The notes beneath the pieces were generated by a model, which saw nothing but the letters and a program-made list of their open reading frames with translations, was not told the origin of the DNA and searched no databases. Positions 30,635-48,212 of a DNA stretch of 64,000 bases are shown in pieces. A program made the position numbers and the translations under genes. This stretch comes from Croceivirga sp. (GTDB lineage Bacteria; Bacteroidota; Bacteroidia; Flavobacteriales; Flavobacteriaceae), in assembly GCA_028284935.1 (NCBI GenBank), contig JANQQQ010000008.1:1-64000 (forward strand), in the 5' to 3' direction. The stretch's first letter is position 1. Each line of letters opens with the position of its first letter.

Positions 30635-31549
30635 TTAAACCCGCTCAATAGACACGAAATCATCATTTTCATTTTTTTCTAGAGTTTTCTCTAAAGTGAA
30701 TATGAACTTGTTGAGCTCTCTATTTAAAATCAACTTGTAATCATCGGTTTGATTTTTATAATCGTTTGGAAGTAAATTAGAAATCGCATGGTCTATTCCT
30801 GTCAATGTTGTAGGGAAATCCAATAAAATGAGTTGTCCATTCTCAATTTTGACATCCACATGCACATTTCTAACCCTTCCGGTGGAACCGAATGAAATTT
30901 TCTCAACCCCAATTTTGTTTTGGATTTTTTGGAATGCCATATTCAAATCATTGGGAAGGGTTTTCGGTACCATAATTTTAAACTTACAATTCTTATACAA
31001 TTGATTTTTGAATTCGAATCCTTTATTGGTGATAAAGTGTTCGCAAACGTACTTAACAAAGTTCTCGTAATATGCATAGGCTAATGTACTCGAAGGAAAA
31101 AAGTTCATATCTGTTTCACTGGAATTTTGAAACATCTGCTTTATCTCTTCTACTTTGTCTGCAAGGTTACTTTTGTTGAACATTGCCAACTTGATACCTC
31201 CTAAATCGCTGGGAATTTTAACCGTATCATCTACAAGAAAAGCACATTTATCCAATCCTAATCGACCGGTAAAGAGGCCCAATTCGAACAGAACATTGTC
31301 ACGGGCTTGAAGCATTTCCTTTCCCCTATAATCTACCTTGTCATCAGGGGAACCGATTAAAATCCCGTAATCAAACTTTAGCGTTGCCGTCAACAAATTC
31401 GATAAGAAATTGCGATTTAGTTTAAAAATCGATTTATTCCATAAAGCTTCATCCCAAATAATCACTTCAAAATCTTGTTGTAAAATTGCCTTTACAATCT
31501 TTGCCGTACCCAATTCCTCGCTTGAGCTTCCTATAAATATTCTTTTCAC
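30635..31549 (-). CDS. TIR-STING effector of a CBASS system
   Basis: 304 residues. Residues 1-125 are a TIR-like domain of the Cap12 type (FIGSSSEE at the start, RDNVLFELGLFTGRLG with the presumed catalytic Glu89), expected to cleave NAD+. Residues 150-304 fit a prokaryotic STING domain. SSTLAYAYYENFVKYV opens the first helix, then come GRVRNV (Arg225/Arg227) and DFPTTL (Asp244, Thr248), matching the Arg/Asp/Thr set that binds c-di-GMP in bacterial STING. The start is a GTG overlapping the CD-NTase stop (GTGA). Known TIR-STING proteins polymerise on the cyclic dinucleotide and deplete NAD+ in infected cells; that behaviour is inferred here. Lower A+T-rich codon use suits its mobile context. 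Confidence 0.85.
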   Translation of the reverse strand: MKRIFIGSSSEELGTAKIVKAILQQDFEVIIWDEALWNKSIFKLNRNFLSNLLTATLKFDYGILIGSPDDKVDYRGKEMLQARDNVLFELGLFTGRLGLDKCAFLVDDTVKIPSDLGGIKLAMFNKSNLADKVEEIKQMFQNSSETDMNFFPSSTLAYAYYENFVKYVCEHFITNKGFEFKNQLYKNCKFKIMVPKTLPNDLNMAFQKIQNKIGVEKISFGSTGRVRNVHVDVKIENGQLILLDFPTTLTGIDHAISNLLPNDYKNQTDDYKLILNRELNKFIFTLEKTLEKNENDDFVSIERV

Positions 31550-32622
31550 GATAAAAATCTTTTAACCAAACTATCCTTCAACAGGTCTTTAATAATTATA
31601 TCCAATTCGTTTAGTATCAACTTTAATTGGGTAATCTTTTCGGGCTTATCTCTGAAGATGAATTCTGAATTGTCGATAGATCGAATGTTGTCTCGATAAA
31701 CCGAATCCACGGCAATCTTCGATAGTTCTTCATATAGTACATGAACCAACTCATCATAGGACTTATCAAAGTATTTGATTTTGTCGATGTTATAACAGAC
31801 GGAGGATATATCAAAGCTGGAGAAATCTATCTGGATATCGGCATCTGCTTTGATCGTTTTTAAAAAGCGAATCATTTTCTTCAGTCGTCCGTTTACCTGG
31901 GAATCCTTAGTGTTAAGAAAATGGATTTTCAAAAATGGAAAATCCACCTTGAGACGTCGGTTCTTTTTCTTATCGTAGATTTGAATACCCTTCTGGTACT
32001 CATTGCCATCCATAACCGCAGTGACACTTTTATACCATGAAGCGGTCACCACATCCACCATCCTTTTAGGACTGGTTAGGTTCACTTCGATAGATTTTGC
32101 TTTGGCATTATTAACCTCTTTATATACCCTAGAAAGAAGTTCCTCGGCATTTTGCCTTATCTTTTTTAAGTTCTCAGTGGCGTCACCCGAATAAGGCATA
32201 GCGTTAATTACTTCATTCAATCTTGTCCTCTGGTAGTAACTTAAATCCGCTCTCAAGCTTGCATTGGTAAATGCTGACATGCTTTCGTGGGAATAAAAAC
32301 TGCCTGAAATTTGAACCAAGTCAATATCACTGTATCCTTTAATATGGGTGTTTGATGGAACAGAACCTTGATATTCATAGTCTAAATTCGGATAAGTGTT
32401 CTTTAAATGAAACTTTACCTTGTTACCTGCCTCAAAGGTGTTCTTAGTGTAAACGGGTTCGACTCCCTGCATTGCCCGCTTAATGTAAACAAGCACTTTC
32501 CTATCATAGAGAGTTCGAAGTTCCGCGCTGAACGATTTTTCTAATAGTACAGATTCATCAATTGCTCCTGGATTTGATCGTTCCTTTACCCTTTGTATGA
32601 GTTTTTCATAGTTTTTTGTCAT
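31546..32622 (-). CDS. CD-NTase (cGAS/DncV-like nucleotidyltransferase) of CBASS
   Basis: 358 residues. The polymerase-beta-type active site is seen as GS (86-87), Asp99-x-Asp101 in GYSDIDLV, and a third carboxylate Asp190 in KRMVDVVTAS. This is the arrangement of cGAS/DncV-like enzymes that make cyclic oligonucleotides. Its partner is a TIR-STING, so the product is probably c-di-GMP, as in known Bacteroidota TIR-STING systems. It starts 4 bp after the DUF2188 gene and overlaps the effector by 4 bp, so the three form one operon. No ubiquitin-like Cap2/Cap3 genes are present (type I-like CBASS). Confidence 0.88.
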   Translation of the reverse strand: MTKNYEKLIQRVKERSNPGAIDESVLLEKSFSAELRTLYDRKVLVYIKRAMQGVEPVYTKNTFEAGNKVKFHLKNTYPNLDYEYQGSVPSNTHIKGYSDIDLVQISGSFYSHESMSAFTNASLRADLSYYQRTRLNEVINAMPYSGDATENLKKIRQNAEELLSRVYKEVNNAKAKSIEVNLTSPKRMVDVVTASWYKSVTAVMDGNEYQKGIQIYDKKKNRRLKVDFPFLKIHFLNTKDSQVNGRLKKMIRFLKTIKADADIQIDFSSFDISSVCYNIDKIKYFDKSYDELVHVLYEELSKIAVDSVYRDNIRSIDNSEFIFRDKPEKITQLKLILNELDIIIKDLLKDSLVKRFLS

Positions 32623-32924: not shown

Positions 32925-32960
32925 CAAAGATGATACGAATGTGTGCAACCTATCTGCACA
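32925..32960 (-). promoter_or_regulatory. Operator/promoter of the CBASS operon (TGCA-N7-TGCA)
   Basis: The box is 32944-32958, extended to a 6-bp inverted repeat TGTGCA/TGCACA (32942-32960). On the minus strand, 11 nt after it, stands CATCTTTG (32932-32925), one base off the -7 consensus. The same layout occurs before three other gene groups of the element (39.25, 45.45 and 46.52 kb). Confidence 0.65.
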
Positions 32961-33008: not shown

Positions 33009-36000
33009 TTAAACAGATTGGCTTTCGTTTAAATCAGCGATAATTTTGAAGATAGTATCGGTTTGGGATTCATCAAATATACCGTCAACGCCCATAGAGT
33101 GGTAATTTCTAAACGGGGAGTCGTAGAGTTTACTTGGGTCTATTTTCCCATTTTTTGTCAGGAAGAGTTTGATAGTATCCAAAAATTGAATTTGCACCGA
33201 ATTCAGTTGGTATCTATTGATGAAATCCGCGAATGCCTTGTCAACTCTTTCAGCGGAGAGACCCATCAATGAAATTATGAACTGAACAAGGTTTAACTGT
33301 TCACCAATCTCCCTTTCAATTTCCTCTTTTTTGATGCCATCGGAAAAAAGAATGGCTTCTAAAGACAGTAGTTCGCTTTCTGTTATGGTCTTACCCTGTC
33401 GTATCCTTGATATGGTCAAGTTGTCTTTATTGGCGCGAATCAACTCCTTTAGTCGGTGTAAGTTGTTGGTAAATGGTGAATCGAAAGTAATCGGTGGCTC
33501 ATTGACATAATCATTGGTAGTAACCTGACTCTCGTCCAAACTATCCTCGAAGTCCGTAGTCACATATTTTTGATCGGTAGGATCAATGTATTTGACCAAA
33601 TCCCTGATTCCCCTTCTTATTTGTTCTAAATGCGTTATCCCATCAAATCTCCAGAAGGTTTCGTCCAAAGGCTTTTTTATGATTTCCTCCTTCTCCTTTA
33701 CTTCCGGAATGGTCATTTTCTTTAATAGTTTCTTTGAAATGATGGCAACTTTAGAAATTGGCACAGTAAAAACGGAAACAAATTCTTTTCTATCTGGCGT
33801 TTCCAAACCCTTAATCATCAGGGTAAACAAAAGTTTGTCATAGAAACGCGCCATATCAGTATTGCCTTTAGCTGGCTTTACCAATGGAGCCAAAGTTTCC
33901 TCGATTATTTTTATGTCTTTCTTGGATAAGTGGTTCCAAAGTTCACGATTTTCGCTACCATATTCCAAAACTGTTTGCATTCGCATCTTGACGTCAAATC
34001 TATCTTTATCCAGTTTTGAGATTTCCGAATGCAGCGTGTTTAATAGTTCTGTTCTGAATTGCTGTAAGTCTTCGTCTTCGACAAAAGCCTCTGTCTTTAA
34101 GTATTCTGCCAATCGCAGTTTTAAGGCATAAACGACTTCGGTCAAACTTTTTTGGGAGCTGGTTTCTATGCCTTCGGGATTTTCTCTAAAAAACTCAAAA
34201 TTGCCACATAAGTCGAATATCAAGAATCGTTCTTTGTCCTTGCCTAAACCAAATAGATCTGGTCGCAGACGTGAACCCCTACCTATCATCTGCCAAAATT
34301 TGGCATAGGATTTCACGGGTTTGTAAAATACGAGGTTAACGCAGCTCGGAGCATCGATTCCTGTGTCCATCATATCAACCGATATAGCTATTTGGGGCAA
34401 ACGGTCTTTTTCCTCATCACAAAACCGCCGAATAAATTCCTCGGCCTTGGGTTCGCCATGGGTAATAACCTTTACATAATCGTTTCCAAAAAGTTCTTTG
34501 TCCAATTCCAGAAAAGTATCTTTTAGAAACCGTGCATGCTTTTTATTCCGAGCAAAAAAAATGGTCTTTCCCAATTCATCACCACTACGTTTTTTGATTC
34601 CGTTCTTAAGAATAAATTGTAGAGTTTTTATGGTGGTGTCCTTGTTGAAAAGCCATTGATACAATTCATTGGATGAAATCCACTCGTTGCCTATCGCTTT
34701 TTCCCCATCCAATATTTCCTCTTCAAACTCTTCTTTTTCTTCATCAGAAAGTTCATCATACCGAATACCTTCCCGTAGAAATTTGGTAGGAGCCGATACT
34801 GTTCGGTAGGGCACCAGATGTTTATTGGAGACGCCTTCTTGAAAAGTATATGCATCGGTAGGGGACTTGTCCGCTAGGCCAAAAATGGCATAGGTATTTC
34901 TATCGATACTGTTCTTCGGTGTAGCCGTGAGTCCCAAAAACAAGGCGTCAAAATATTCAAAAATTGCTTGGTACTTTTTATATATCGAGCGGTGTGCCTC
35001 ATCAATGATTATCAAGTCAAAATGTCCCACCCCATAAAAACGTTGCTCACCATCTTTTGAACTATCAATCAAACCCATCATGGTTTGATACGTGGAAAAA
35101 GCAAAGCGGGCATCGGGATTGTCCTTTTCCTCCAAAAGATTCACGCTAGAATGTTCGGGAAGAAATTTCATAAAGTTGTTTTTGGCTTGACTGACCAGGC
35201 TTTTTCGGTCGGCTAAAAAAAGTATGCGTTTCACCCAATTGGCCTCCAACATCATTTTTGAAAGTGCAATGGATGTCCTGGTCTTTCCGGTTCCCGTGGC
35301 CAAAACCAATAGCGCACCACGGTTTGTTCCTATAAGTTTGCCCGTAGTCTTATCCGTTCCTGCAAAATGTTCGGCTATACTTTTAATGGATCGCAACTGG
35401 TAGAGCCTTCCCGCAATTAACTCATCTACTTCTGCGGTTCTGATATCGGCACGATGGTCACGACGATACATCAGGGTTTGTAGTTCCGCTTTGGTGTAAA
35501 AACCATTAACAGGTCTAGATCTTTTATAGAACTGGTCGTCCCAGAGGTAGGTCTCAAAACCATTGCTATAATACATCACAGGTCTTCTGCCGTACATTTT
35601 CTCCAAACTATCGGCGTACAGTTGGGCTTGGTTTTCGCCTTTGCTGACACTTTCCAACGTTTTTTTGGCTTCTACCAATGCCAAGGGCAGGCCATCATCA
35701 TCCCATAATACATAATCTACATACCCGGTTTCGGAAACATTAGTTGATTTGGGCATGTACTGGACCTTAAATTCTGTATCCTTTGCCCCGGCCAAATCCC
35801 ACCCTGCTTCACGCAATAGTACGTCGATAAAATATTTTCGGGTTTCATATTCGTTTCGAGGATGTTGCACTTCGTCCTGTGCATTGGCAAGAATTTTATT
35901 CTCCTCTATTTGCTGTTGTAAGGCTTCCAGTTGTTTTTTGAACAGCGCGTTCTTTTCCTCTAACTCCCTGTTCTTTTCAGCCGTTTCCTCCAACTTTTTT

Positions 36001-36500
36001 TGAAAGGCTTCTTTGTCGGCGTCCAATTTTTTCTGAAGCGATGCCAACTGTTTTCTGGTTAGTGCATCTTGCCCTTCTTTGGGAATTAAATCCCAGTCGA
36101 ATACACCAATATCCTGTAGAGTTTCTTTGGTGTACGATTTTGCAAACCATTTTGCGAAGTAGTACAAATACTCAATAATTGTATACGAATCAACATCGGA
36201 AACCCTTTTGTTGTGCAAGGCCAGATTGCCCGTTTTGCGGATTAAATGGATTTCGTTGTACAGCTTATGATTGAACTGCTCTTTGAAAACCTGATTGGTA
36301 ATCAGGCTATTGAGCGAAGTGTCATAAGGCAATGTCAATTCTTCATCATTGCTATACATCCAGTTAACGGCTAGTTCTAAGGCCATGCGTGAATAGGCCA
36401 AGGAGGTACGGGGGTCTGCTATGACCAACCGCTCCGCCTTGGTAGCTCTTTCAAAAAAAGAGCCCCATTCAGAAGCCAAAAACTGGAAATTTGTATTCAT
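33009..36500 (-). CDS. hsdR: Type I restriction enzyme, R subunit
   Basis: About 1163 residues from the ATG at 36500. The earlier TTG (36527) lies in a linker-like stretch and is rejected. The order is a DUF4145-like N-terminal domain, a coiled coil (about 142-206), a PD-(D/E)xK nuclease (Asp262, Glu277, Lys279 in LVEAKK), and an SF2 translocase with Walker A ATGTGKT (about 401-407), DEAH, LTATP and the motif VI region QMIGRGSRLRPD. The C-terminal EcoEI-type domain follows. All key residues are present, so it should be active. The upstream frame stays open through a KFGV repeat as far as the TAG of the AlbA_2 gene. Confidence 0.95.
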   Translation of the reverse strand: MNTNFQFLASEWGSFFERATKAERLVIADPRTSLAYSRMALELAVNWMYSNDEELTLPYDTSLNSLITNQVFKEQFNHKLYNEIHLIRKTGNLALHNKRVSDVDSYTIIEYLYYFAKWFAKSYTKETLQDIGVFDWDLIPKEGQDALTRKQLASLQKKLDADKEAFQKKLEETAEKNRELEEKNALFKKQLEALQQQIEENKILANAQDEVQHPRNEYETRKYFIDVLLREAGWDLAGAKDTEFKVQYMPKSTNVSETGYVDYVLWDDDGLPLALVEAKKTLESVSKGENQAQLYADSLEKMYGRRPVMYYSNGFETYLWDDQFYKRSRPVNGFYTKAELQTLMYRRDHRADIRTAEVDELIAGRLYQLRSIKSIAEHFAGTDKTTGKLIGTNRGALLVLATGTGKTRTSIALSKMMLEANWVKRILFLADRKSLVSQAKNNFMKFLPEHSSVNLLEEKDNPDARFAFSTYQTMMGLIDSSKDGEQRFYGVGHFDLIIIDEAHRSIYKKYQAIFEYFDALFLGLTATPKNSIDRNTYAIFGLADKSPTDAYTFQEGVSNKHLVPYRTVSAPTKFLREGIRYDELSDEEKEEFEEEILDGEKAIGNEWISSNELYQWLFNKDTTIKTLQFILKNGIKKRSGDELGKTIFFARNKKHARFLKDTFLELDKELFGNDYVKVITHGEPKAEEFIRRFCDEEKDRLPQIAISVDMMDTGIDAPSCVNLVFYKPVKSYAKFWQMIGRGSRLRPDLFGLGKDKERFLIFDLCGNFEFFRENPEGIETSSQKSLTEVVYALKLRLAEYLKTEAFVEDEDLQQFRTELLNTLHSEISKLDKDRFDVKMRMQTVLEYGSENRELWNHLSKKDIKIIEETLAPLVKPAKGNTDMARFYDKLLFTLMIKGLETPDRKEFVSVFTVPISKVAIISKKLLKKMTIPEVKEKEEIIKKPLDETFWRFDGITHLEQIRRGIRDLVKYIDPTDQKYVTTDFEDSLDESQVTTNDYVNEPPITFDSPFTNNLHRLKELIRANKDNLTISRIRQGKTITESELLSLEAILFSDGIKKEEIEREIGEQLNLVQFIISLMGLSAERVDKAFADFINRYQLNSVQIQFLDTIKLFLTKNGKIDPSKLYDSPFRNYHSMGVDGIFDESQTDTIFKIIADLNESQSV

Positions 36501-36531
36501 TCTTTTTGGTTTGTTCTCTTTAGGCAATTGA

Positions 36532-36602: not shown

Positions 36603-37994
36603 CTAATCCATTACTTTCCAATGTCCAGCCTTATCCGAACCAATCCTCGCTAACCTGCCCAATTTCTGCAATTTCGCCAACTGTTTTTCTACGGCTCTAT
36701 CAGAAATACCAATAATTTCGGATAACTCCTTGGCGGTTTTGTTTTTATCTTCTTTTAAAAGAGCAAGTATTTTCTCAGACGTTTTTCCCAATACCTTCCC
36801 TGACTTTTCCTCCTTTGCATTATTTGTAAGGGGAACAATAATCTCAAACACATCACCCTCAATAAACTTTGGTTTCCCGCCAGATGCGTACAATTCGGTG
36901 AACTTATAGGTATTACGAACACCCGAACCCAATTCATCTACCCAGCCAATTTCCTTGAACAGTTTTGCAATAATTGGATTTTTGGGATAGGGCGAAAAAT
37001 TGGCAGGATCTATATTACCCTTTCCATGTGGTTTGTTCCAATTTTCTGAGCGAACTTGGTCGGCCTCAATAATGAATTTGGCAGGAAACGGATTTGTGTA
37101 TTCCCTATGCACCAAAAGGTTGCCAGCAATTTCCCGGAAGAGGTTATCGCGTACATTGATACGCTGCCCATCTATCAATTGAAATTTATCGGGCAAGTGC
37201 TTGGCTACAAATGCCATAAGACGTTCATAACTTTCCACCAAATTAGCACGTATATCATCCCGGTCATCGTAACGGTCAGTGTTCTTAATCCGTACAATGG
37301 CATCCGTTTTGTAATGGGGCACTACGTTCTGTATCAATTCATCTTTTCCAAATAGCAAAACTGAGGCGAGGGTATAACCAGATTGCCCCGTCTTCATATC
37401 TTTTTTATATAGCCCTGCCGAGCGCAACAATTCTTCGTTGGTCATGGCCAGCCAAGGATGTTTGGGCTGTTGATTGCGTGCCAGATTACGGACTTTGTCG
37501 AAAAGGGATTCCTTAAAGTCGGCTATTTCAACATATGGAAATACCTGATTCTCAGAATAGGAATTCTGCTTACGCAGATATAACTGTGACACTAGGTCAT
37601 GTTGGTTGGTAATATCAAAATCACCATCTTGATTGCGGTCATAGATCCGTCCATTTGTAGCATGCACTTGAGAACTTTCTGGTACATAAATAACAACCAC
37701 CTTTTTATCTTCAACGTCCAACACCTCTGGAGAAACGTAATAAGGGGGATTCAATTTTTGCGGGTTGTTGGCATTGGCAACGAGACCATCGATTATACCC
37801 TGAACCTTGTCTTCTTGCACACCTATTACAGTACCATCATTTTGCACGCCCAACATCAGATGGCCACCACTACGGTTTAAAAAACCACAGATAGAGTCGA
37901 AAGCATCCTTATTGAGTGCTGTACGGCTTGTTTTGAACTCAACATTGCTGTTCTCCCCTTGTTCTATAATATCTTTTAGTCTATCTATCGTCAT
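36603..37994 (-). CDS. AlbA_2 (Schlafen-like) ATP-binding transcriptional-regulator-type protein
   Basis: 463 residues. The N-terminal AlbA_2 domain (NVEFKTSRTALNKDAFDSI, GGHLMLGVQNDG) is shared with Schlafen-like proteins. A GHKL-like ATP-binding segment (REIAGNLLVHREYTNPFPA) follows, then a C-terminal winged helix (KTAKELSEIIGISDRAVEK). Often mislabelled as RecG helicase; it has no helicase motifs. It lies inside the R-M operon, between the cold-shock gene (22 bp) and hsdR. A DNA- or RNA-binding regulatory role, or an extra antiphage effector, is possible. It ends with a single TAG before an in-frame KFGV repeat that leads into hsdR. Confidence 0.85.
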   Translation of the reverse strand: MTIDRLKDIIEQGENSNVEFKTSRTALNKDAFDSICGFLNRSGGHLMLGVQNDGTVIGVQEDKVQGIIDGLVANANNPQKLNPPYYVSPEVLDVEDKKVVVIYVPESSQVHATNGRIYDRNQDGDFDITNQHDLVSQLYLRKQNSYSENQVFPYVEIADFKESLFDKVRNLARNQQPKHPWLAMTNEELLRSAGLYKKDMKTGQSGYTLASVLLFGKDELIQNVVPHYKTDAIVRIKNTDRYDDRDDIRANLVESYERLMAFVAKHLPDKFQLIDGQRINVRDNLFREIAGNLLVHREYTNPFPAKFIIEADQVRSENWNKPHGKGNIDPANFSPYPKNPIIAKLFKEIGWVDELGSGVRNTYKFTELYASGGKPKFIEGDVFEIIVPLTNNAKEEKSGKVLGKTSEKILALLKEDKNKTAKELSEIIGISDRAVEKQLAKLQKLGRLARIGSDKAGHWKVMD

Positions 37995-38016: not shown

Positions 38017-39207
38017 CTATGGGTTAAGCCATTCTCTGTCTGGTTTTGCAAGTAATCGGGCATTGTTATAAGCCCAATCCAAAGGCAAAATTGTATTTGC
38101 CCTATATATTTCATTTTCCCTAGCCACAACTAAAGCCAAATCAGCCTTTTCTGGTTTTTCCAAACATAATGGCAATAACAGCTGTATGCCTCCATTATAA
38201 AATTGTGGAATTGCGGTCTTATAATTTCGTTTAATCCTTTTAATGGCGCTTTCAATAGCAGAACGCAATCTTTCCATTATTTGGTCATCAGAAAGTGCCT
38301 TAAACGATTCTGGAAACCTGTCTTCCCTATCATCAACTATATGCTCAAAATCGGGAATTAAACGTCGATTTACGTCATAGATTAAGTCTGTTGGAGAAGA
38401 AAAGTAGTTTGCTAATTTGGGTCTATTGATGAAATGTGTCATAGTTCTATCACTTTCCCGGTCAAATTTTAAAAATTTCCACTTTTGTGAATCGAGGTTT
38501 AAATAAGAATAAGTGGGCGACGGAGGCCGATTAATTTCAAAATATGCAAATATCTCTTCTTGTTTAGGTGTTACCAATCCAGTGTTAAAAGCAGCATATG
38601 TTGCAACTCCATTTTGCTCTGCATATTCAATTTTATCTTCCTTTTGTAACTGAATAAAAGTTTGATGGACGTAACTGTCAAGTACAGGATAATCGCCGGT
38701 TTTTTCATCTAAATAGTCCCACTCTTCAGGTTGTGCTAAATCGCTTAGTTCAATGATGGCATCTATCCAATTTCCTAAATAGGCGAATTTGTCAAGGGCA
38801 TTGCGAGTATCAATACAAACAATATTAACTGCATTTAGCCTTTTACCATCTTTGGTCGGAGTCATCTCTACCAAATAATTCTCCCTGATTCTCTTGAAAC
38901 CAAACTGCCCTTTCACTTGAGAATGATGAAACCAATAATCTTTGCCGTCCGCTTCGATAAAACCCCAACCGTCAGTCATTTGATAACTTTTGATTTTTCC
39001 TCGAAGCCTCTCTTCTTGTCTTTTGACTTTAATGGCATTTGACCCTTTCGAGGTTTTTTTTATTTGGAATTCAACTTCTTCTCCCTCAAATAGTACCTTA
39101 AAGTTTCCGTAAACCTCGGTGAAGTGAACAAAATGCTCTTCTAGCTTGTCGTCCAAGATTTTTCCAAATCCTCTTTGGACATTAAAAAACGAGACTTTTC
39201 CTTTCAT
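38017..39207 (-). CDS. Double cold-shock-domain protein with DUF3825-like C-terminus
   Basis: 396 residues. There are two tandem cold-shock-like domains: about 1-62 (GKVSFFNVQRGFGKILDD) and 66-125 (RGKIKSYQMTDGWGFIEADGKDYWFH), both with RNP1-type aromatic residues. The C-terminal ~250 residues (AAFNTGLVTPKQEEIFAYFE, later PLDWAYNNARLLAKPDREWL) resemble DUF3825. Single-stranded nucleic acid binding is expected from the first part; the function of the second is unknown. It is preceded by its own TGCA-N7-TGCA promoter box and may head a sub-operon with the AlbA_2 gene and hsdR. Confidence 0.8.
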   Translation of the reverse strand: MKGKVSFFNVQRGFGKILDDKLEEHFVHFTEVYGNFKVLFEGEEVEFQIKKTSKGSNAIKVKRQEERLRGKIKSYQMTDGWGFIEADGKDYWFHHSQVKGQFGFKRIRENYLVEMTPTKDGKRLNAVNIVCIDTRNALDKFAYLGNWIDAIIELSDLAQPEEWDYLDEKTGDYPVLDSYVHQTFIQLQKEDKIEYAEQNGVATYAAFNTGLVTPKQEEIFAYFEINRPPSPTYSYLNLDSQKWKFLKFDRESDRTMTHFINRPKLANYFSSPTDLIYDVNRRLIPDFEHIVDDREDRFPESFKALSDDQIMERLRSAIESAIKRIKRNYKTAIPQFYNGGIQLLLPLCLEKPEKADLALVVARENEIYRANTILPLDWAYNNARLLAKPDREWLNP

Positions 39208-39234: not shown

Positions 39235-39268
39235 TAAAAATACTCGCAATCTATGCAATACAGCTGCA
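39235..39268 (-). promoter_or_regulatory. Operator/promoter of the cold-shock/AlbA/hsdR group (TGCA-N7-TGCA)
   Basis: Box at 39254-39268. On the minus strand TATTTTTA (39242-39235) follows after 11 nt as a -7 element, and the ATG is 27 bp beyond. The spacing matches the three other boxes of the element. Confidence 0.65.
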
Positions 39269-39280
39269 CACATAATGTAT

Positions 39281-40420
39281 TCAAACCAACTCGCCTTTAA
39301 AAGCCTTTTGTAACAGGCAGTTGAATAGATTTTCACTTTCCTTCAGTTCTTTTTTAGCCAACTCTTTTTGTTTTTCGACCAAGCTGATTTTTTTGGCGAA
39401 CTCATGTTGTAAATAAAGCGGCGGAATTGGAATCGATAATTTTGCCATTTGACCCATACTCACCCTGCTTCTAGTTTGACCATGAAAAAATTTCGTTATT
39501 AAATGAAAAAAACCACGCGAATTGATTAAAAAAAGGAGGTAATCTTGAATAGCTGTATTTGGGTCAGGTCTCAGTTGAAGACAATCTGCTTTGTTCAAAG
39601 CCTTGTTTAAATAATTGGGAAATCTACAGGCTCTTATATTTGGTGTACCCATTGTTGCAATTAGTATGTCGCCAGGCAAACAAGTATAATTTCGCAGCTT
39701 CTCGGCATGCGATTCGGAAACGTAAGACTTACTTTTGTCTACAAATTCATTAACTCCGATATTTTGAAGCCTTATTATTCTAACCCCTTTCTCGGTATAG
39801 TGTGCGCTTTTTAAATTAGAACCAAAGGGGCCGTCTTTAAATATTAAAACGGACTTTTTCAGATTTTTTAATGACCAGTTTTTTGGATTGATGACAGGAT
39901 CCCCAAACATTTCTAAAAAAATAGACTGCGACAGTAAATCGCATTCTTCCAACAGCTTTTTGGTTTTATCGCGCAAGGCGACAGTATCATCCAAAATGCG
40001 AGCAATACGCTTTTGGGTTTCAAGGGGTGGGAGGGGGATTTCAACTTTAGAAAACTTAGAAATCCAATATCTTTTATGTAGCTCTTTGTCCATCCGAACC
40101 TTCCCCATTCTATAATAAAGAAAACGCAAATCCGCTTTTTCTTCATCAGCGGTTAAAATTTTCATTGCCGAAGACTTCACTTTAAAGGGAAAGTCTACAT
40201 AATGAAAGGCGGTGGTAAAATCATCAAAAATAATTGCGGGAACATTTTCAAAAATTCCTTTGGATTCGTTTGTATGACCTAATAAAAAAGATTTTCCAGC
40301 TGTAAGCACCGGAGTTTTGAAACTATCGTCATAATCAGTAGTTTCCACAATATACTTCGTTGGCTGTTCATAATCCAACACTTCTTCCAATCGTATTTTA
40401 TCCCAATCTACCATAGTCAT
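39281..40420 (-). CDS. hsdS: Type I restriction specificity subunit
   Basis: 379 residues with two target-recognition domains, each followed by the conserved helix (VEIPLPPLETQKRIARILD near residue 135 and LSIPIPPLYLQHEFAKKI near 335). It sets the DNA site recognised by the HsdR/M/S complex. Its ATG overlaps the hsdM stop by one base (TAATG), so production is coupled. No inverted repeats or extra hsdS fragments for shuffling are visible nearby, except for the TRD inside the kinase fusion two genes upstream. Confidence 0.95.
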   Translation of the reverse strand: MTMVDWDKIRLEEVLDYEQPTKYIVETTDYDDSFKTPVLTAGKSFLLGHTNESKGIFENVPAIIFDDFTTAFHYVDFPFKVKSSAMKILTADEEKADLRFLYYRMGKVRMDKELHKRYWISKFSKVEIPLPPLETQKRIARILDDTVALRDKTKKLLEECDLLSQSIFLEMFGDPVINPKNWSLKNLKKSVLIFKDGPFGSNLKSAHYTEKGVRIIRLQNIGVNEFVDKSKSYVSESHAEKLRNYTCLPGDILIATMGTPNIRACRFPNYLNKALNKADCLQLRPDPNTAIQDYLLFLINSRGFFHLITKFFHGQTRSRVSMGQMAKLSIPIPPLYLQHEFAKKISLVEKQKELAKKELKESENLFNCLLQKAFKGELV

Positions 40421-42036
40421 TAAATTAAGCTATCCAGAAGAATATCTCTCTCCTCGCTTAATTTTTTAATTCGTTCAATTATTATTTCCGGTGCATCATA
40501 TTCAATTTCTTTATATACTATTTCCTTGTACCGGTTGATGGACAAGTCCCAATCATTTTCCTTGATTTCTTCCAACGGGACTAGAAATGACTGTGAAGTA
40601 CGGTCGCTATAATCATGGGTACATGTGTTTTCTATGAACTTGTCCCAGCCCAGATTTTTAGGAACATCGTGAATTTGTACTAAAGAGCCGTCTTTTTCAT
40701 GCATCTTTTTGAAATAGGGGCTTTTCAGGTATTTGAAATGATCCAGTATTTGAGGCAGATTGAAGTTTTCATGTGATTTAACCGCTTCTTGTATACGGGT
40801 GCCATCGCCAAAAGCGAAATCATCAAAAAGGGCTTCTTCTACCAATAAGTTGCGTTTGTCGTCCAACGATTTGCCATCTTGCAGCATGTCATAATACCAT
40901 ACATAATCCGTGCCACCAGAGCCCGTTTTAGTAAAAATCAAAATAGCGGTACTAACCCCAGAATAGGGTTTAAACACCCCGCTTGGCATGGAGATAACGG
41001 CTTCTAATTTATGATTTGCCACTATCTCCTCACGAATGCTTTTATGTGCCTTACCACTACCGAAAAGTACCCCATCGGGGACGATTACCGCAACACGCCC
41101 ACCTGTTTTTAATTGGCGTAGCATCAAGGCCAAAAACAGCAGTTCAGTTTTAGTCGTATTGGTAACGTTTTTTAATCCTGGCGAAATGCTTTCTTTGTCA
41201 ATAGTGCCTTTAAAGGGCGGATTGGCTAGTATCAATGTATAAGCATCCGAAATGGTGTTGTCTTTGGATACTGCATCGATATCGATAATGTTCGGTTCCT
41301 CTACACCGTGTAGGTATAGGTTCATTGAAGCGATACGCAGCATTGTGGCATCGAACTCCATACCGTTGAACATCTTTTTGTTGATGAAATCGGAGTGTTT
41401 GTCCAGATCGGTCACCCCATAATGCTTGTCAATATATTCTTTGGCGGCAACTAGAAATCCGGCACTTCCAGCAGCAGGATCACAAATACTGTCCTCCAAA
41501 GTTGGCTGCATCATTTCTACCATCAATTTGATGATGTGACGAGGCGTTCGAAATTGGCCAGCAGTACCGCCACCCTCGAGTTTGGAAAGCAAATATTCAT
41601 ATATATCGCCTTTGGTATCTTGGTTTTCCATTGGCAGCCGTTCGAGTTTCTCAATTACTTGATCAAGAACTGCAGGTTTTGAAATGCCAAAAGAGGCCCC
41701 TTTCATGTAAGTGCTAAAAAGACTTTTTTCCTTTCCCAATGAACGAATGAACGGGAACACTCCATCTACGGTATTGCTAAAGATTGTATGGCGCGGAGTC
41801 ACATCCATTTCCTTTAAGTTTTTCCAACGGAACTGTTGTTGGTCTTTATTAAAAATGGGTATGTACTTAAAACCACGTTTGGCCTTTAACTCATTACGAG
41901 TCTCAGTCTCGTCCAAATTTTTTATAAAAATCAAGTAGGTCAGTTGTTCGACGATTGTGATGGTATTGGTAATACCACCTGTCCAGAACGTATTCCAGAT
42001 TTGATCTATTTGTGATTTTAGTTCTCCCGTTATCAT
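40420..42036 (-). CDS. hsdM: Type I DNA methyltransferase subunit
   Basis: 538 residues. It has an HsdM N-terminal helical domain, SAM motif I CDPAAGSAGF (186-193 core) and the catalytic N6-adenine motif NPPF (272-275). All key residues are intact, in contrast to the degenerate copy within the kinase fusion. It starts 4 bp after the response-regulator gene and overlaps hsdS, so R-M modification and the two-component genes share one transcript. Confidence 0.96.
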   Translation of the reverse strand: MITGELKSQIDQIWNTFWTGGITNTITIVEQLTYLIFIKNLDETETRNELKAKRGFKYIPIFNKDQQQFRWKNLKEMDVTPRHTIFSNTVDGVFPFIRSLGKEKSLFSTYMKGASFGISKPAVLDQVIEKLERLPMENQDTKGDIYEYLLSKLEGGGTAGQFRTPRHIIKLMVEMMQPTLEDSICDPAAGSAGFLVAAKEYIDKHYGVTDLDKHSDFINKKMFNGMEFDATMLRIASMNLYLHGVEEPNIIDIDAVSKDNTISDAYTLILANPPFKGTIDKESISPGLKNVTNTTKTELLFLALMLRQLKTGGRVAVIVPDGVLFGSGKAHKSIREEIVANHKLEAVISMPSGVFKPYSGVSTAILIFTKTGSGGTDYVWYYDMLQDGKSLDDKRNLLVEEALFDDFAFGDGTRIQEAVKSHENFNLPQILDHFKYLKSPYFKKMHEKDGSLVQIHDVPKNLGWDKFIENTCTHDYSDRTSQSFLVPLEEIKENDWDLSINRYKEIVYKEIEYDAPEIIIERIKKLSEERDILLDSLI

Positions 42037-42040
42037 CTAA

Positions 42041-42934
42041 TTAGATGTAGTTTTTATAGTTTGTTTCTACGAATTCCGGAAGCCATTCTAAGACTTCCAA
42101 CAACAATAATGTATTAGAACTGAAAGGTAATTTGACAATAACCTCATCGTCCAAATGTGAAAATCTACTTGTTGATTCTTTTAGTTTTCTGAATGCTGCC
42201 TTAATGTCTGTTGGAACTCCTTTATCAAGTTTAAATTCATCTCCTTGATTCGTTCTCGTAGGCTTATCTTCCATAAATCTTGTACACAACCCTAAAATCG
42301 GTTTTCCGTGCTGATGGAAAAGTTGTTCCGGAATACAAGGAATAGGATTATTTAAACCTATATAAATCGCTTCCAGCAAATCTCTTTGTACGTTTATGTT
42401 CTTTTTACGAAAGTCGCTTGCCTCAAAAGCTTGAATGATTTGCACCAATAAATGTTCGTGCGTATTGCTGATAATACCTTTATCGAATGCTATAAATGGT
42501 TCTTCATATTTTAATCTAGCTGTTCGATAATCAGATTTAGAAACTTCTTGAGCGATGTATTTAAACATCTTGTTTCTATCCTCTTCTTTCTTTTCGTATA
42601 TCTGCACATTTCCTACAAAGGACTCAAAACGATCTATGAAACCTGTATTAACACAATATGGGATATGTCTCCCAATTTGTAATGCATAGGCATCCAAATC
42701 CTTCATTGCTCTTAACGCAAAATTATCTTTTTCTACTTCCTGGTCTGCTTCAATTTTGCCTTTCCCGTCTAGAATGACGAACTCAATACTTGGGTCATTT
42801 TTTAAAAATTCAAAGCCTGTTTCCCAATCCAATTTATATTCCAACTGAATGTTATTATGACGCGCTACTCCTGATAAGGATTCGCAATAATCTTTCTTAT
42901 CATCAACTAATAATACTCTTACAGGTTTTGACAT
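42041..42934 (-). CDS. Response regulator with novel output domain
   Basis: 297 residues. Residues 1-125 are a receiver domain: LLVDDKKDY with the acidic pair at 11-12, phospho-acceptor Asp56 in FVILDGKGK, Thr97 in VNTGF and the conserved Lys at 115/116. All residues needed for phosphorylation are present. Residues 135-297 form no DNA-binding domain that I recognise; they end in a segment VIVKLPFSSNTLLLLEVLEW. It is sandwiched between the kinase fusion (4-bp gap) and hsdM (4-bp gap). It is likely phosphorylated by that kinase and may act through protein contacts with the R-M complex or on another target. Confidence 0.85.
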   Translation of the reverse strand: MSKPVRVLLVDDKKDYCESLSGVARHNNIQLEYKLDWETGFEFLKNDPSIEFVILDGKGKIEADQEVEKDNFALRAMKDLDAYALQIGRHIPYCVNTGFIDRFESFVGNVQIYEKKEEDRNKMFKYIAQEVSKSDYRTARLKYEEPFIAFDKGIISNTHEHLLVQIIQAFEASDFRKKNINVQRDLLEAIYIGLNNPIPCIPEQLFHQHGKPILGLCTRFMEDKPTRTNQGDEFKLDKGVPTDIKAAFRKLKESTSRFSHLDDEVIVKLPFSSNTLLLLEVLEWLPEFVETNYKNYI

Positions 42935-42938
42935 TATT

Positions 42939-45380
42939 TTATTTTAATAATGTTATTAAGAATTCTACGTTATGAGGCATTATTCCAAATCCTTCATTTT
43001 TTATTAGCTCTATAGTTCCTTTATGCTTTTTTAATATTAAGCCTATCAAAAACCCGCCAAATCCACTACCTACGTCTGACTGGATTGAGCTCCCTTTTGC
43101 CAGGAAGTCCTGAATTGTGAATTCTGGCGGTAAAGGCACTCCATTGTTACGAATTGACAACTGAAACGAAATCGTATCTTTAGCTTTAATCTCTAACCAT
43201 ATTGTTGGAGTTTCATAACTATCTTTAAATCCATGTTTTATGGCATTAGTAATGAAATTGTGCAAAAGGATTCTTAATTGCTTACGGTCTGCCAGAAACT
43301 CTACTTCTTTCCCGGTTATTTTAAATTGAATACTGGGATATTCTGAAGCAATATTTTGTAAAAATTTCTTAAGCTGTATACTCTCTTTTATTGGCTCTGA
43401 AATTGAAATTATTTTGATAGCTTGTTCTAAAATATAATCCATATCGGTCACAGAACGTTCCATTCTGTCCAGTGTGTTTTTTAAGGTGTGGATTTCTATT
43501 TGCTCTGGTGTATCTGTATCAAATACCGGCACTATTGTTTCGTTACTTTCAATTGATTCTTTAGCTTCTATTTTTTTATTTAAAAAGGACTTTAATGATG
43601 TGAAATCATTGCCTAAACCCGATAAGGGTTGTTTGAGTGTGTGCTTAAGCGTTTTAATGAAATCTTTTTCTTGGTTTGTAACATTATCACCATGAACCTG
43701 TTTTTCTGATTTTCTGAATTCTTTAAAAAGAATATTTTTTTGCTCTTCTAGACCTGGAATCTGGATTTTAATTTCCATTAAATCCCTTACGCTCAATCTA
43801 GGTATAGTGGCTCCTTTGGAATAGTATTCTACTTGTTTAGTTACGTATGGTTGGGTTAATTCTCTAGCTGCATATTCATCTAAAACCTCATTATCATAAA
43901 ATTTTAACCAATACACATTTTGCCCCAATGCAAATGACATATCATTGGGCAAAACAGATGCCTTAATTTTTTTGTTAAATGCGCTCAACACCACGCCACC
44001 TCTCACTAAATGTTTGTCGATATTTTCAATTTCGTCATGGTCAATCCCGAGCATATTTTCCTTTGGTTCAAAATAAAGTCCATTTTTATCAATGTCTGCC
44101 ATTTTGATTAGTTTATATTCTCCGCCTACATATAAGCTATTTTTATTCTTGAACATTGCTCCGTACTTACGCTGTTCTATTAACTGTCCTATTTGATATA
44201 ACTTATGGTCTGGCTTAACCTGTATATCGTCAATATCAATTACATATTTCTTTGGGTTTAGATCGTAATTAAAGAGGTCTTCATATGCTATAGTCCTAGA
44301 AACATCTCGAACATATTTTTTATTATTTATCGTTCTTACTACCTCTGACATATCATCCTTTAACGTGTTTGAGGCATCTAAAAAGAAAACTTGATTATCT
44401 CTAGTGTTAAAATCGAAAATAAACATGGACACATTCATTGCCGTATTTTCAAACATGCCATTAGGAAACGTAATAACAGCTTCTAAAGCTCCAGAGTTTA
44501 TAATTTGCTCTCTAGCTTCTTTATTAAATGATGCTTGACTACTTAAAACACCTGACTGTACAATTAGTATGGCCTTGTCTAACTGGGAATGATTGTTTTG
44601 TAATTTTGATAACATAAGATCAAACTCCCCTCGTGAATTTCTGGCGGCACTTCTTCTAAATGGCGGAATGAAAATACCCGTAGTTATAGTTTGAGACATC
44701 ATGTAGGTAATATTACCTCGGTCAATTAATTTAGAAACCAACTCGTTAAGATGATTGTTATATTCAAATTCATTAAAAAGATTGGGATTATAATCACTAT
44801 TAATTGAGAACGTAGCTGCCTTGTTATCGGCCGCAATCTTTAAAAGAAAATCATTATACCCTTCAAAATAGATTTCGATAGTATTATCATTATTTTGAAA
44901 CCAGTTTAGGCCTGACAAAACTGTTATTAATTTATCACTTAATCTTAACGACCCGCTATTTGATTGTTTAAAAAACCAATCACATAACTTATGAGCCACA
45001 AGCAGTTTTTCTCGAGGATGATTATGATTGTATGTATAATCATCCTCATGTAATAATTCTTCCAGTGAACGAACAATTACATCAATTTTATTTGCTCTAC
45101 CATAAGTTCTTATCGCATTGGATTCATGTACCAACTTATTGCGATAGTGTTGAAATTTTAAGCTAACAACATCATCTTTTACCAATTTAATTTTTCCAGC
45201 CTCCTTTGTAAACAATTTTGAGTAGTTATTAGCTCTAGTAGTTACTTGAGAAGCAGATACAGGAAGCCCATCTTTACGTTTGTAAAGGTTTTGATTATTT
45301 ATAATGTCAGCTATATCTCTTGAAAAAAGAGGCTTTTCTGCGTTTTGCAGTACTTGTTCTATAGCTTCATGTAATGTCAT
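42939..45380 (-). CDS. HARE-HTH / pseudo-N6-methyltransferase / TRD / histidine kinase fusion
   Basis: 813 residues. Residues 1-70 are a HARE-type winged helix (HEAIEQVLQNAEKPLFSRDIA). Residues 100-345 are an HsdM-like methyltransferase fold with lost catalytic motifs: motif I is EGYNDFLL (about 172-180) instead of DPxxGxGxFL, and the NPPF position reads FIPPF (237-241). The later helix ALEAVITFPNGMFENTAMN is well kept. Residues 395-555 are an HsdS-type target-recognition domain ending TIPRLSVRDLMEIKIQIPGLEEQ. Residues 573-660 have a HisKA-like H-box (KHTLKQPLS, His580), and 670-813 a GHKL ATPase (N-box LHNFITNAIKHG, G-boxes RNNGVPLP and GSGFGGFLIG). No membrane segment is present. It reads as a cytoplasmic sensor kinase whose input is a type I DNA-recognition module. 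Confidence 0.85.
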   Translation of the reverse strand: MTLHEAIEQVLQNAEKPLFSRDIADIINNQNLYKRKDGLPVSASQVTTRANNYSKLFTKEAGKIKLVKDDVVSLKFQHYRNKLVHESNAIRTYGRANKIDVIVRSLEELLHEDDYTYNHNHPREKLLVAHKLCDWFFKQSNSGSLRLSDKLITVLSGLNWFQNNDNTIEIYFEGYNDFLLKIAADNKAATFSINSDYNPNLFNEFEYNNHLNELVSKLIDRGNITYMMSQTITTGIFIPPFRRSAARNSRGEFDLMLSKLQNNHSQLDKAILIVQSGVLSSQASFNKEAREQIINSGALEAVITFPNGMFENTAMNVSMFIFDFNTRDNQVFFLDASNTLKDDMSEVVRTINNKKYVRDVSRTIAYEDLFNYDLNPKKYVIDIDDIQVKPDHKLYQIGQLIEQRKYGAMFKNKNSLYVGGEYKLIKMADIDKNGLYFEPKENMLGIDHDEIENIDKHLVRGGVVLSAFNKKIKASVLPNDMSFALGQNVYWLKFYDNEVLDEYAARELTQPYVTKQVEYYSKGATIPRLSVRDLMEIKIQIPGLEEQKNILFKEFRKSEKQVHGDNVTNQEKDFIKTLKHTLKQPLSGLGNDFTSLKSFLNKKIEAKESIESNETIVPVFDTDTPEQIEIHTLKNTLDRMERSVTDMDYILEQAIKIISISEPIKESIQLKKFLQNIASEYPSIQFKITGKEVEFLADRKQLRILLHNFITNAIKHGFKDSYETPTIWLEIKAKDTISFQLSIRNNGVPLPPEFTIQDFLAKGSSIQSDVGSGFGGFLIGLILKKHKGTIELIKNEGFGIMPHNVEFLITLLK

Positions 45381-45429: not shown

Positions 45430-45463
45430 TAAATTTAAACTTAACCTTTGCAGTACACCTGCA
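45430..45463 (-). promoter_or_regulatory. Operator/promoter of the kinase-regulator-hsdMS operon (TGCA-N7-TGCA)
   Basis: Box at 45449-45463, directly after the WYL stop codon. On the minus strand TAAATTTA (45437-45430) follows after 11 nt. The start codon is 50 bp downstream. Confidence 0.65.
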
Positions 45464-46474
45464 CTAGTCAAAATTTTCTAACAACTTCTGAATCCTTTGC
45501 TTCATCTTTCTTTTAAAATCAGTTGGAGCTTTTATGGTTATTGCTTCCCCAAAGGATAATAACAATTGTTCTAGTTCATAATTGGGTATCACTTCAATTG
45601 AAAAAGAGTATCCATCTGAAGTTTCGGAAATGGTTTTTTGTGTACCATGCAAAGGCTTAGTTTTTATATAGGGTGCCAATTGTTTGGTTGCACGTAATTC
45701 TATTTTTATAGGGTTTTTATTGACCTCTTTTGAAACTCCAATGATGTCTTCAAAATATTCATCAAAGTCTAAGGCTTTATCATCAACGTAAGCCACATTC
45801 GAATTTTGTATTTCGTTAATCCGATCCAGTGCTAGGTTGGTGAGGTTGTTATAATTACCACTCTTTCCAAATAAAAACCAACGGTTATTATAGTTTTTTA
45901 GGTGGTAAGGGTGGAAGACGATTATTCGTTCGGTATCGCTCTTAAAGGACTGATATTTAATTGCAAGAGACTGTTTGTACAAGATAGCATTGAATAGAGG
46001 TGACAGGTGTTCGGTTCCTTTCAAAAACTCATTGCGGTCAAAACTGATGATATTATCCGAATGGTTGGATAACTTGAAGGTATCATCAAGTTTGGGAAGT
46101 AATTCATTTATCCATTCGAACTGAGGCATTCCTTTGAACCTCCTTAAAACCATCATTGCAGATTTCAACTGTTCTGCCTCCAAGTCATTTATCGGTTGAT
46201 TGTTAATTGAAAAGGATAGATCATCATATCGGAAATACTTTTTTCTTCCATCCTTGATTCTTTCCAATGGGATGCTCCACCCTTGAGAGGATTCCATAAA
46301 AGTAATGTCGTCGTATAACTGTCTTCTTTTGATTCCGGAAGAGTTTGGATCTAGTTCGGCAATAGCCTCATTACAACTTTCTAAAAGGTCGTCGATGTAA
46401 AATCTTCTTCCGGGATTTCGGAAACATTTATCAAGGGCCTGGTAGCGGATAAATGCATTTTTTGTTATGGCCAT
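45464..46474 (-). CDS. WYL-domain transcriptional regulator
   Basis: 336 residues from the ATG at 46474. The longer start (46531) would run through the operator box and is rejected. An N-terminal winged helix (FIRYQALDKCFRNPGRRFYIDDLLE) is followed by a WYL domain (VFHPYHLKNYNNRWFLFGKSG, then LALDRINEI) and a C-terminal WCX-like part. WYL regulators control many bacterial defence loci and sense nucleic-acid or nucleotide ligands. It is the first gene of the block and has a TGCA-N7-TGCA box in its own promoter and at three more gene groups, so it is the best candidate for the factor that binds them. Confidence 0.88.
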   Translation of the reverse strand: MAITKNAFIRYQALDKCFRNPGRRFYIDDLLESCNEAIAELDPNSSGIKRRQLYDDITFMESSQGWSIPLERIKDGRKKYFRYDDLSFSINNQPINDLEAEQLKSAMMVLRRFKGMPQFEWINELLPKLDDTFKLSNHSDNIISFDRNEFLKGTEHLSPLFNAILYKQSLAIKYQSFKSDTERIIVFHPYHLKNYNNRWFLFGKSGNYNNLTNLALDRINEIQNSNVAYVDDKALDFDEYFEDIIGVSKEVNKNPIKIELRATKQLAPYIKTKPLHGTQKTISETSDGYSFSIEVIPNYELEQLLLSFGEAITIKAPTDFKRKMKQRIQKLLENFD

Positions 46475-46497: not shown

Positions 46498-46531
46498 TAA
46501 ATATATAAAAACCTATGCAGAAACAGTGCAT
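46498..46531 (-). promoter_or_regulatory. Operator/promoter of the WYL gene (TGCA-N7-TGCA)
   Basis: Box at 46516-46530, extended to ATGCA/TGCAT (46515-46531). On the minus strand TATATTTA (46505-46498) follows after 10 nt, with the ATG 23 bp further on. This fits autoregulation. Confidence 0.65.
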
Positions 46532-46644
46532 AAGTTTGGTTTAATAGGAATTTAATGCAACAAATTCCTGGTCAAATCATGAGTTGTATAAAAAATCAAA
46601 AAGAACTATATTCAAATATTAAGTAATCTGCACTATTCAAAGCA

Positions 46645-47825: not shown

Positions 47826-48212
47826 ATGGAAAAGCAAAAAAGTGGCAGAAAACAGTTGGGAAAGAATAAGCGTTGCCACAACGTAATGCTGCGTTTCAAT
47901 GATGGGGAATATGAAAAACTGAAGTCCATCTGCGAATCCTACCATTTGAATATTTCCGAGCGCGGAACGGTAAGCCCACTTTTGAGAAGGTTGGTTCTAA
48001 GGGACGTAGTTGATGAAAAAGATGTATTGCCAAATACGTCGCACCTTGCCTACCATTTGAACAAGATCGGGAACAACATCAACCAGCTTGTCAAATTGGC
48101 GCACCATAAAAATCTGAGAAACCCGAACAGTAATTTGGAAGTGGAGATTCAACAAACAAATAAGTTGTTGGGCAAACTTATTGAGCTTGCCATCAAAGAA
48201 CAACCGCAATGA
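47826..48212 (+). CDS. MobC-like relaxosome accessory protein
   Basis: 128 residues. Basic start (EKQKSGRKQLGKNKRCHNVMLRFNDGEYEKLKSI), and the conserved C-terminal segment LAYHLNKIGNNINQLVKLAH of MobC/BmgB-type proteins. It binds oriT and helps the relaxase. The stop overlaps the relaxase start (ATGA), so the two are coupled. Confidence 0.88.
   Translation: MEKQKSGRKQLGKNKRCHNVMLRFNDGEYEKLKSICESYHLNISERGTVSPLLRRLVLRDVVDEKDVLPNTSHLAYHLNKIGNNINQLVKLAHHKNLRNPNSNLEVEIQQTNKLLGKLIELAIKEQPQ

Follow-up and report, generated by a model that had tools for sequence, protein, structure and literature searches.

We analysed a 64,000-nucleotide stretch of contig JANQQQ010000008.1 from Croceivirga sp. (assembly GCA_028284935.1), referred to here as the window, which carries a defence island with an unusual fusion gene near its head. 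The genes of the island lie on the same strand in the order WYL regulator, fusion gene, receiver gene, HsdM, HsdS, DUF3825 gene, AlbA_2 gene and HsdR, followed by the cyclase and TIR-STING genes of a cyclic-oligonucleotide-based anti-phage signalling system (CBASS) (Table 1). The fusion gene joins parts of a type I restriction-modification (R-M) enzyme, including a single target-recognition domain (TRD), to the DHp and ATPase domains of a histidine kinase, and the gene that directly follows it encodes a receiver protein.

Pfam placed HARE-HTH (residues 1-59), N6_Mtase (265-367, 7.6e-11), Methylase_S (393-550, 4.8e-9) and HATPase_c (698-797, 4.5e-9) in that order along the fusion, with no match to Pfam HisKA. 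Comparison of a 20-member profile of the fusion family with the structures in the PDB gave matches to EcoR124II HsdM (2e-54), to HsdS chains (7e-14) and to solved sensor kinases (about 4e-13). The sensor-kinase chains 5uht, 2c2a and 3dge, which we take to be Thermotoga HK853, were matched across profile positions 569-815, corresponding to the dimerisation and ATPase domains. The top NCBIfam matches of the C-terminal half were likewise sensor kinases, all far under the cut-offs of those models, and in each of six further members scanned singly Pfam found HATPase together with a methylase domain, a specificity domain or both. An earlier, sequence-only reading of the window had placed the gene at the same coordinates, which proved correct; the strand is minus, the plus-strand reading being interrupted by 68 stops. 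Its claim that a GHKL kinase is fused to type I methylase and specificity modules is borne out by the profile matches to HsdM, HsdS and sensor kinases and by the 27 loci described below. As read from its domains, the protein is predicted to be a sensor histidine kinase, found in some Bacteroidota, that uses a degraded part of a restriction-modification enzyme as its sensing half.

The partner gene was less readily recognised, as Pfam gave no usable match to the 297-amino-acid regulator. However, a profile of the regulator family matched receiver structures in the PDB (4.8e-5), and hhalign comparison with eight receiver domains from the same genome gave a probability of 95.7% and an E value of 9e-9. 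Residues D12, D56 and K115 are present in 27/27 regulators, and position 11 is Asp in 24 and Glu in 3. The profile match, the hhalign result and the three invariant residues agree with the earlier suggestion that a response regulator adjoins the kinase, and identify the neighbour as a real, divergent receiver. It is the gene directly after the fusion in all 27 loci (26 by script, plus L030). Its C-terminal domain is also conserved, with R184 in 26, E188 in 24 and H260 in 26 of the 27 proteins.

No DNA-binding domain was recognisable in the regulator. Among the relatives, the regulator of L040 has a weak OB/cold-shock match (OB_RNB, 6e-4) in a tail that by alignment is common to several, and that of L035 is fused to an AlbA_2 domain (6e-15); because of these two features, an RNA-related output is hinted at. 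The OB-like tail is found on the regulator of some relatives in place of the cold-shock/DUF3825 gene of the window. Three candidate identities for the regulator were set aside. A DUF4145/HEPN assignment of the C-terminal domain was rejected since hhalign comparison with HsdR N-termini was no better than two controls; a HEPN_Apea match in one regulator (0.022, and 0.11 in a second search) was too weak to be used; and a match to PDC-M02B was seen at 0.012 in 1 of 20 members, a name that was not found in the literature searched.

Conservation of the signalling residues and divergence of the input half

The sequence-only reading had proposed a profile search for TRD-plus-kinase architectures, and this search revealed a recurring family. 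With a TRD-plus-kinase profile (E 1e-20), members were found in 8/395 genomes of a phylum sample and 10/397 of a family sample. In a class sample, a full-length profile (1e-40) matched 121 of 395 genomes, nearly all through ordinary HsdM; as read from the table of matches, the alignment extends past the TRD and into the kinase in 11 of the 395, and in one more genome (G931) it covers the kinase part only. The three samples overlap, the profile searches were confined to this phylum, and the scan of genome contigs reaches close relatives only. Named carriers are Leeuwenhoekiella marinoflava, Winogradskyella arenosi, the Myroides odoratimimus plasmid pFM-G13 and an unverified faecal phage record. 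Scans of viral contigs found no relative, and among plasmid records only three, all from Myroides, reached 80% cover of a fusion query.

The 27 loci compared are those with a complete fusion. Four others were omitted: L006, whose contig stops within the gene; L007, in which the gene breaks off ahead of the HATPase; and the pair L132 and L133, both of which have the fusion, the regulator and a divergent WYL gene. By kinship with named relatives, 26 of the 27 belong to Bacteroidota, the remaining one (L043) being the faecal phage record. Members are not independent of one another, since the fusions of the window, L004, L005 and L028 are 84-88% identical and L094 and L095 look near-identical. HsdM and HsdS lie downstream of the fusion in 22 of the 27 loci (L030 and L033 being added to the 20 scored by script). 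The fusion and receiver recur mainly as the leading genes of type I R-M islands. A WYL gene is present in 20 loci, being five genes distant in L029 and divergent in L033. Recurrence at 27 loci, with the regulator adjacent each time, indicates that the predicted pair is more than a one-off fusion.

Two of the omitted loci merit description. In L007 (Aquimarina, 10001-12079), where the fusion is truncated, R-M genes are absent and other genes lie downstream, and the WYL gene and a perfect copy of the inverted repeat considered in the next section are kept. The fusion of L006 is 86% identical to that of the window and comes from a 3.7 kb contig of a metagenome-assembled genome of Candidatus Dojkabacteria, probably mis-binned Flavobacteriia.

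Residues P240, Q516, Q547, H580, N712, N745, G747, G773 and G775 are invariant in 27/27 fusions. The H-box and DHp region characteristic of two-component kinases are represented by the profile match at 569-815 and by H580 in every member, while N712, N745-x-G747 and G773-x-G775 constitute the N, G1 and G2 boxes, each present in all 27. A potential bias is that the profiles and queries used to find the fusions (P0001, A3 and A4) contain the kinase part, so that conservation of the kinase residues is somewhat favoured by selection of the members; the regulators were not used for finding. Loci L094-L100 (n = 7), which lie outside both profile builds, retain every invariant residue of both the fusion and the regulator.

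The methylase motifs behave differently. The motif IV Asn is retained in 10/27 fusions and is missing in the window and 16 other members, and the S-adenosylmethionine (SAM) motif I is missing from the fusions of the window's clade, so the window fusion has lost both the SAM motif and the catalytic NPPF that mark HsdM. By comparison, the HsdM proteins of the same loci have NPP[FY] in 22/22 and the motif I pattern in 19/22. The fusion also has one Methylase_S stretch, unlike HsdS, in which there are two TRDs and two conserved regions. The sequence-only reading had taken FIPPF to stand for NPPF, and this is correct, as FIPPF falls opposite the NPPL/NPPF of relatives in the 20-member alignment (a five-row alignment places it otherwise). 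It had also taken EGYNDFLL to be the remnant of motif I; loss of the motif is upheld, but the position is probably about 25 residues off, with NLFNEFEY opposite NPFAGxASF in the five-row alignment. Because the kinase and receiver residues are invariant and the methylase motifs are not conserved, phospho-signalling would be the shared, selected function, and the job conserved across the fusion family is predicted to be signalling, not methylation.

We also compared the fused TRD with the HsdS of the same locus. The fused TRDs of L004, L005 and L028 are respectively 88%, 86% and 89% identical to that of the window. In L028, both TRDs of HsdS are unlike those of the window (12-31% and 11-29% identity in 40-residue blocks), and in L004 and L005 only the second TRD of HsdS is unlike (18-22% and 16-45% in 40-residue blocks). 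When each fused TRD was ranked against the HsdS proteins, its own HsdS had a mean rank of 11.5 across 22 loci, where chance gives 11.5 (P 0.50). In the pair L039/L041, the input half has diverged (TRD 34%, methyltransferase domain 40% identity) whereas the DHp and ATPase domains (72 and 66%), the regulator (69%) and the WYL protein (78%) stay similar, which suggests that inputs can diversify independently. Fused-TRD similarity correlates with regulator similarity (Spearman 0.68) more than kinase similarity does (0.36); as these scores come from short local alignments, we draw no conclusions from them. A Lactococcus plasmid (L010, 7314-9125) encodes a 603-amino-acid N-6 DNA methylase with a TRD-like half and no kinase, directly before a normal HsdM and HsdS; it may be related to the fusion's input half while lacking the kinase.

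Inverted repeats, the WYL protein and the remainder of the island

The inverted repeat TRTGCA-N7-TGCAYA, a putative operator, is present between the WYL and fusion genes, and copies of it precede four gene groups of the island, CBASS included. The whole genome (4.23 Mb) contains three perfect places for the pattern, all inside the island, and none for a reversed control pattern. The 28 loci searched (568 kb) contain 22 perfect sites, compared to 0.25 in mononucleotide shuffles; spacers of 4-6 or 8-10 gave no site. In the 150 bp that precede the fusion start, a site with at most one mismatch is found in 15/26 loci, and one with at most two mismatches in 18/26 (L035 begins at a contig end). As an operator of this island, the repeat would be a new observation.

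The distribution of the repeat was examined with respect to the WYL gene. Three loci that have the fusion and lack a WYL gene in the stretch read (L030, L034 and L097) have no site at one mismatch or fewer, L134 has a WYL gene and a perfect site with no fusion, and L131, a short contig, has a WYL gene and a one-mismatch site; these favour the WYL protein as the binder. Several observations weigh the other way. In L040 two perfect sites are present although no WYL gene is recognisable, L098 and L099 each have one single-mismatch site without a WYL gene, and L029, with its distant WYL gene, has no site at one mismatch or fewer. L135 encodes a near WYL relative and shows no site in the 185 bp of upstream sequence that is covered. 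As for the repeat itself, sites with up to two mismatches are not enriched in the window (12 compared to 7.9 expected, a number reached in 9/100 shuffles). Among 21 more distant WYL relatives (L110-L130), the site is absent in 19 and present as a one-mismatch copy in 2. Overall, the candidate operator mostly accompanies the WYL gene, and the R-M and CBASS genes of the island appear to share one regulator.

Islands of the relatives contain other defence genes, namely DRT2 (L004), GmrSD (L029 and L030), a gene for an AAA_5 protein (L035) and one for a NACHT protein (L034). In L029 and L030, which are sensor-headed islands with HsdM and HsdS, the GmrSD-type (type IV) genes follow HsdS, and in L029 HsdR comes next. 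The window island adjoins a mobilisable element, with MobC/NikA-like and MobA relaxase genes at 47826-50506, just past the WYL gene. MADS is a set of eight genes, mad1-mad8; comparison with it gave cross-matches to mad2 and mad5, attributable to HsdM/HsdS homology.

Table 1. Features of the island in the window, with fusion domains listed beneath the fusion gene.
Feature	Position	Strand	Details
Fusion gene	42939..45380	-	813 amino acids; HARE-HTH, degenerate HsdM-like domain, single TRD, DHp and HATPase; predicted sensor histidine kinase
HARE-HTH of fusion	45204..45380	-	residues 1-59; Pfam E 2e-5, 25.3 bits, just under the cut-off of 25.9
HsdM-like domain of fusion	44211..44870	-	about residues 171-390; SAM motif I lost, motif IV is IPPF
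Single HsdS-type TRD of fusion	43731..44204	-	residues 393-550; Pfam Methylase_S and family profile; invariant Q516 and Q547
DHp region of fusion	43386..43718	-	about residues 555-665; candidate phospho-acceptor His580 at 43641-43643
HATPase_c of fusion	42990..43289	-	residues 698-797; N, G1 (NNGxP) and G2 (GxGxGG) boxes
Receiver protein (regulator)	42041..42934	-	297 amino acids; D11/D12, D56, T97, K115; C-terminal domain with R184, E188, H260
WYL/WCX regulator	45464..46474	-	homologues favour start at 46474 over 46531; WYL 1.1e-12, WCX 3.4e-10
HsdM	40420..42036	-	intact motifs DPAAGSAGFL and NPPF
HsdS	39281..40420	-	two Methylase_S stretches
Cold-shock and DUF3825 protein	38017..39207	-	Pfam; between HsdS and HsdR, perfect putative operator just upstream
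Schlafen AlbA_2 protein	36603..37994	-	C-terminal helix-turn-helix (HTH); sub-threshold HATPase_c_4 match
HsdR	33009..36527	-	Pfam
CBASS oligonucleotide cyclase	31546..32622	-	match at 4e-131; no Pfam match at 0.01
CBASS TIR-STING effector	30635..31549	-	prok_STING 2.7e-42, TIR 1e-30
Putative operator, perfect	46514..46532		about 40 bp before WYL start
Putative operator, two mismatches	45447..45465		between WYL and fusion gene
Putative operator, perfect	39252..39270		between HsdS and DUF3825 gene
Putative operator, perfect	32942..32960		between HsdR and CBASS cyclase gene

Proposed mechanism and alternatives

We consider it probable that the fusion is a histidine kinase with half of a type I enzyme as its input, that it signals to the neighbouring regulator, and that it does so within a defence regulon probably controlled by the WYL protein. 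The pair would thus be a two-component alarm made from spare R-M parts, with an HsdM-like domain and one TRD as the half enzyme. Two copies of the fusion may pair through their DHp helices, bringing together two M and two half-S modules in a manner similar to M2S1. The helix after the TRD is predicted to continue into the DHp helix, and occupancy of the groove by DNA or a DNA-like ligand could then alter autophosphorylation of His580, from which the phosphate would move to Asp56 of the regulator. The C-terminal output of the regulator may act on RNA or protein partners, and the WYL protein may repress the same gene groups through the operator. The ligand would be either some fixed feature of the DNA or an agent acting against type I enzymes, rather than the target of the local HsdS. 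The recurrence of the pair at type I islands suggests that defences of this kind can be connected to an alarm working by phosphate relay.

Several findings weigh against this interpretation. The C-terminal domain of the regulator has no recognisable fold, PDB profile and Pfam-type searches having given nothing usable. The G1 box has Asn in 27/27 fusions where most kinases carry Asp, and His580 is directly followed by Glu or Asp in just 3/27 (L009, L030 and L033), so the kinase is at least atypical. Within the stretch read, HsdM/HsdS are missing downstream in five loci (L034, L035, L038, L042 and L098), and in L031 and L097 they follow only after intervening genes. The exceptions to the pairing of WYL gene and site, and the lack of enrichment of sites with up to two mismatches in the window, also count against it. 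Models made with AlphaFold2 from five alignment rows for the fusion and three for the regulator had a predicted local distance difference test score of 39-40 and were both unusable; the HARE-HTH is the sole confident part of the fusion model (block means 81-92, residues 1-50).

An alternative concerns what the input half detects. Ocr, ArdA and proteins of that kind are phage DNA mimics that block restriction. The pseudo-HsdM and TRD could act as a type I decoy, such that these proteins or loss of the R-M complex trigger the kinase, by binding or release of the decoy, and the regulator then licenses backup modules. Dispensable methylase motifs and a fused TRD unrelated to the local HsdS are what a decoy would permit, and backup systems do lie within the islands, namely CBASS in the window, DRT2 in L004 and GmrSD in L029/L030. 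A response to Ocr has been attributed to PARIS, Gabija and Zorya II (PMC12255303; this and the other papers cited here are used in excerpt). The constancy of the TRD could equally signify a constant DNA site, however, and the five loci named above have no HsdM/HsdS downstream within the stretch read. We regard this explanation as unlikely, if not strikingly so. Slightly more doubtful is its fuller form, in which a guard kinase, as decoy receptor for anti-restriction proteins or R-M damage, couples type I restriction to CBASS TIR-STING, DRT2 and other modules through the His-Asp relay and the shared operator. For the ligand, we nevertheless place first a constant feature of the DNA and a guard role directed at anti-restriction proteins.

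A second alternative is that the fusion itself, and not the WYL protein, binds the operator, with paired half-type-I enzymes on a palindromic bipartite site auto-regulating the island. Such a site is expected for two identical half-S modules, it often lies within 150 bp upstream of the fusion start, and L040 combines site and fusion with no recognisable WYL gene. On the other hand, the site is constant while the fused TRDs are only 21-49% identical (8 pairs compared), L134 has the WYL gene and a perfect site without a fusion, and no site at one mismatch or fewer is found in L030, L034 and L097, where the fusion stands without a WYL gene in the stretch read. We consider binding by the fusion improbable.

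The sequence-only reading had proposed that the protein senses a specific DNA site, perhaps whether it is methylated, or else the assembly state of the R-M complex. A kinase that reads methylation at the target site of its own R-M system would be consistent with the homology to HsdM/HsdS and with the position in the operon. This model is decidedly improbable, because the fused TRD is decoupled from the local HsdS: its match to its own HsdS is at the level of chance, and it was retained while one or both HsdS TRDs changed. SAM motif I and the motif IV Asn are also lost in the window's clade. Least probable of all is a still-active modifying enzyme whose M domain methylates and whose kinase half only regulates it; several relatives have an NPFAGxAS-type motif I plus NPP[FLW], but the motif IV Asn is missing in the window and 16 others while the kinase residues are invariant.

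If the preferred reading, a kinase with a half-type-I-enzyme input, is true, a DNA-enzyme half-complex would be a new class of histidine-kinase input and would provide a direct path from restriction-modification to a signalling system. This bears on the question of how front-line restriction and abortive backup are coordinated within defence islands, and the sensor kinase, regulator, putative repressor operator, R-M and CBASS genes form an apparent single regulon that is testable gene by gene.

Comparison with known systems

The input half of the fusion belongs to the sequence family of type I HsdM/HsdS and keeps their order; it differs in its unconserved catalytic motifs, its one TRD and the attached kinase. 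The sequence-only reading stated that no sensor kinase of this design had been described. As regards the fusion of HsdM, TRD and kinase this agrees with the open-licence PubMed Central literature searched, the available parts of which yielded no description of it, but two-component pairs tied to R-M have already been described (PMC8011034). There HEF_HK/Response_reg_2 is a proposed two-component system at R-M loci, and like the pair in the window it consists of a soluble GHKL kinase and a divergent receiver encoded together near R-M genes. In contrast, the HEF_HK kinase is mostly HATPase_c_3+HEF_HK+HATPase_c, paraMORC-like, and found mainly with type II/C5 methylases according to the excerpt. 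Neither 'HsdM' nor the Pfam name N6_Mtase occurs in the text of PMC8011034. PF19191 and PF19192 gave no match in the window pair at E 1, nor in 20 regulators at E 0.1; a whole-genome search for PF19192 found none in 10 genomes, but no control matched either and it shows nothing.

Other GHKL proteins resemble the fusion in part. CapK/CapS share a GHKL kinase that lies ahead of immune operons and controls their expression, although CapK is an HTH-STAS-GHKL protein that acts on a Ser of a STAS-winged-HTH repressor, and neither a receiver nor an HsdM/HsdS part is seen in the excerpt (PMC13373217). No STAS domain was matched in the fusion, the WYL protein or the regulator. paraMORC is a GHKL protein in R-M operons composed of GHKL+S5, whereas the fusion has DHp+HATPase_c and a receiver partner (PMC2292703). 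Schlafen-kinase fusions at bacteriophage exclusion (BREX) loci have already been described, and the AlbA_2 protein of the window resembles the Schlafen proteins with a minimal histidine kinase and winged HTH at those loci (PMC12839542).

At the level of the island, the WYL protein of the window contains both the WYL and WCX domains of BrxR/CapW-type regulators. BrxR/CapW is similarly a WYL protein at a defence island with inverted-repeat operators at more than one promoter; in BrxR the repeated unit spans 11 bp and the spacer 5 bp, compared to 6 bp and 7 bp for the putative operator of the window, where a sensor kinase stands alongside (PMC9122601). RptR is a repressor at the head of a type I R-M island in which a further defence module sits between the HsdS and HsdR genes, but is a small alpha-helical protein acting on 6-bp palindromes, with no phosphorelay seen in the excerpt (PMC12255303). 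Thus R-M-linked two-component pairs and GHKL kinases over immune operons are already known, and the HsdM/TRD input is absent from them as excerpted. The pair in the window is predicted to be a two-component system whose input belongs to a new class, inside what looks like a new regulon.

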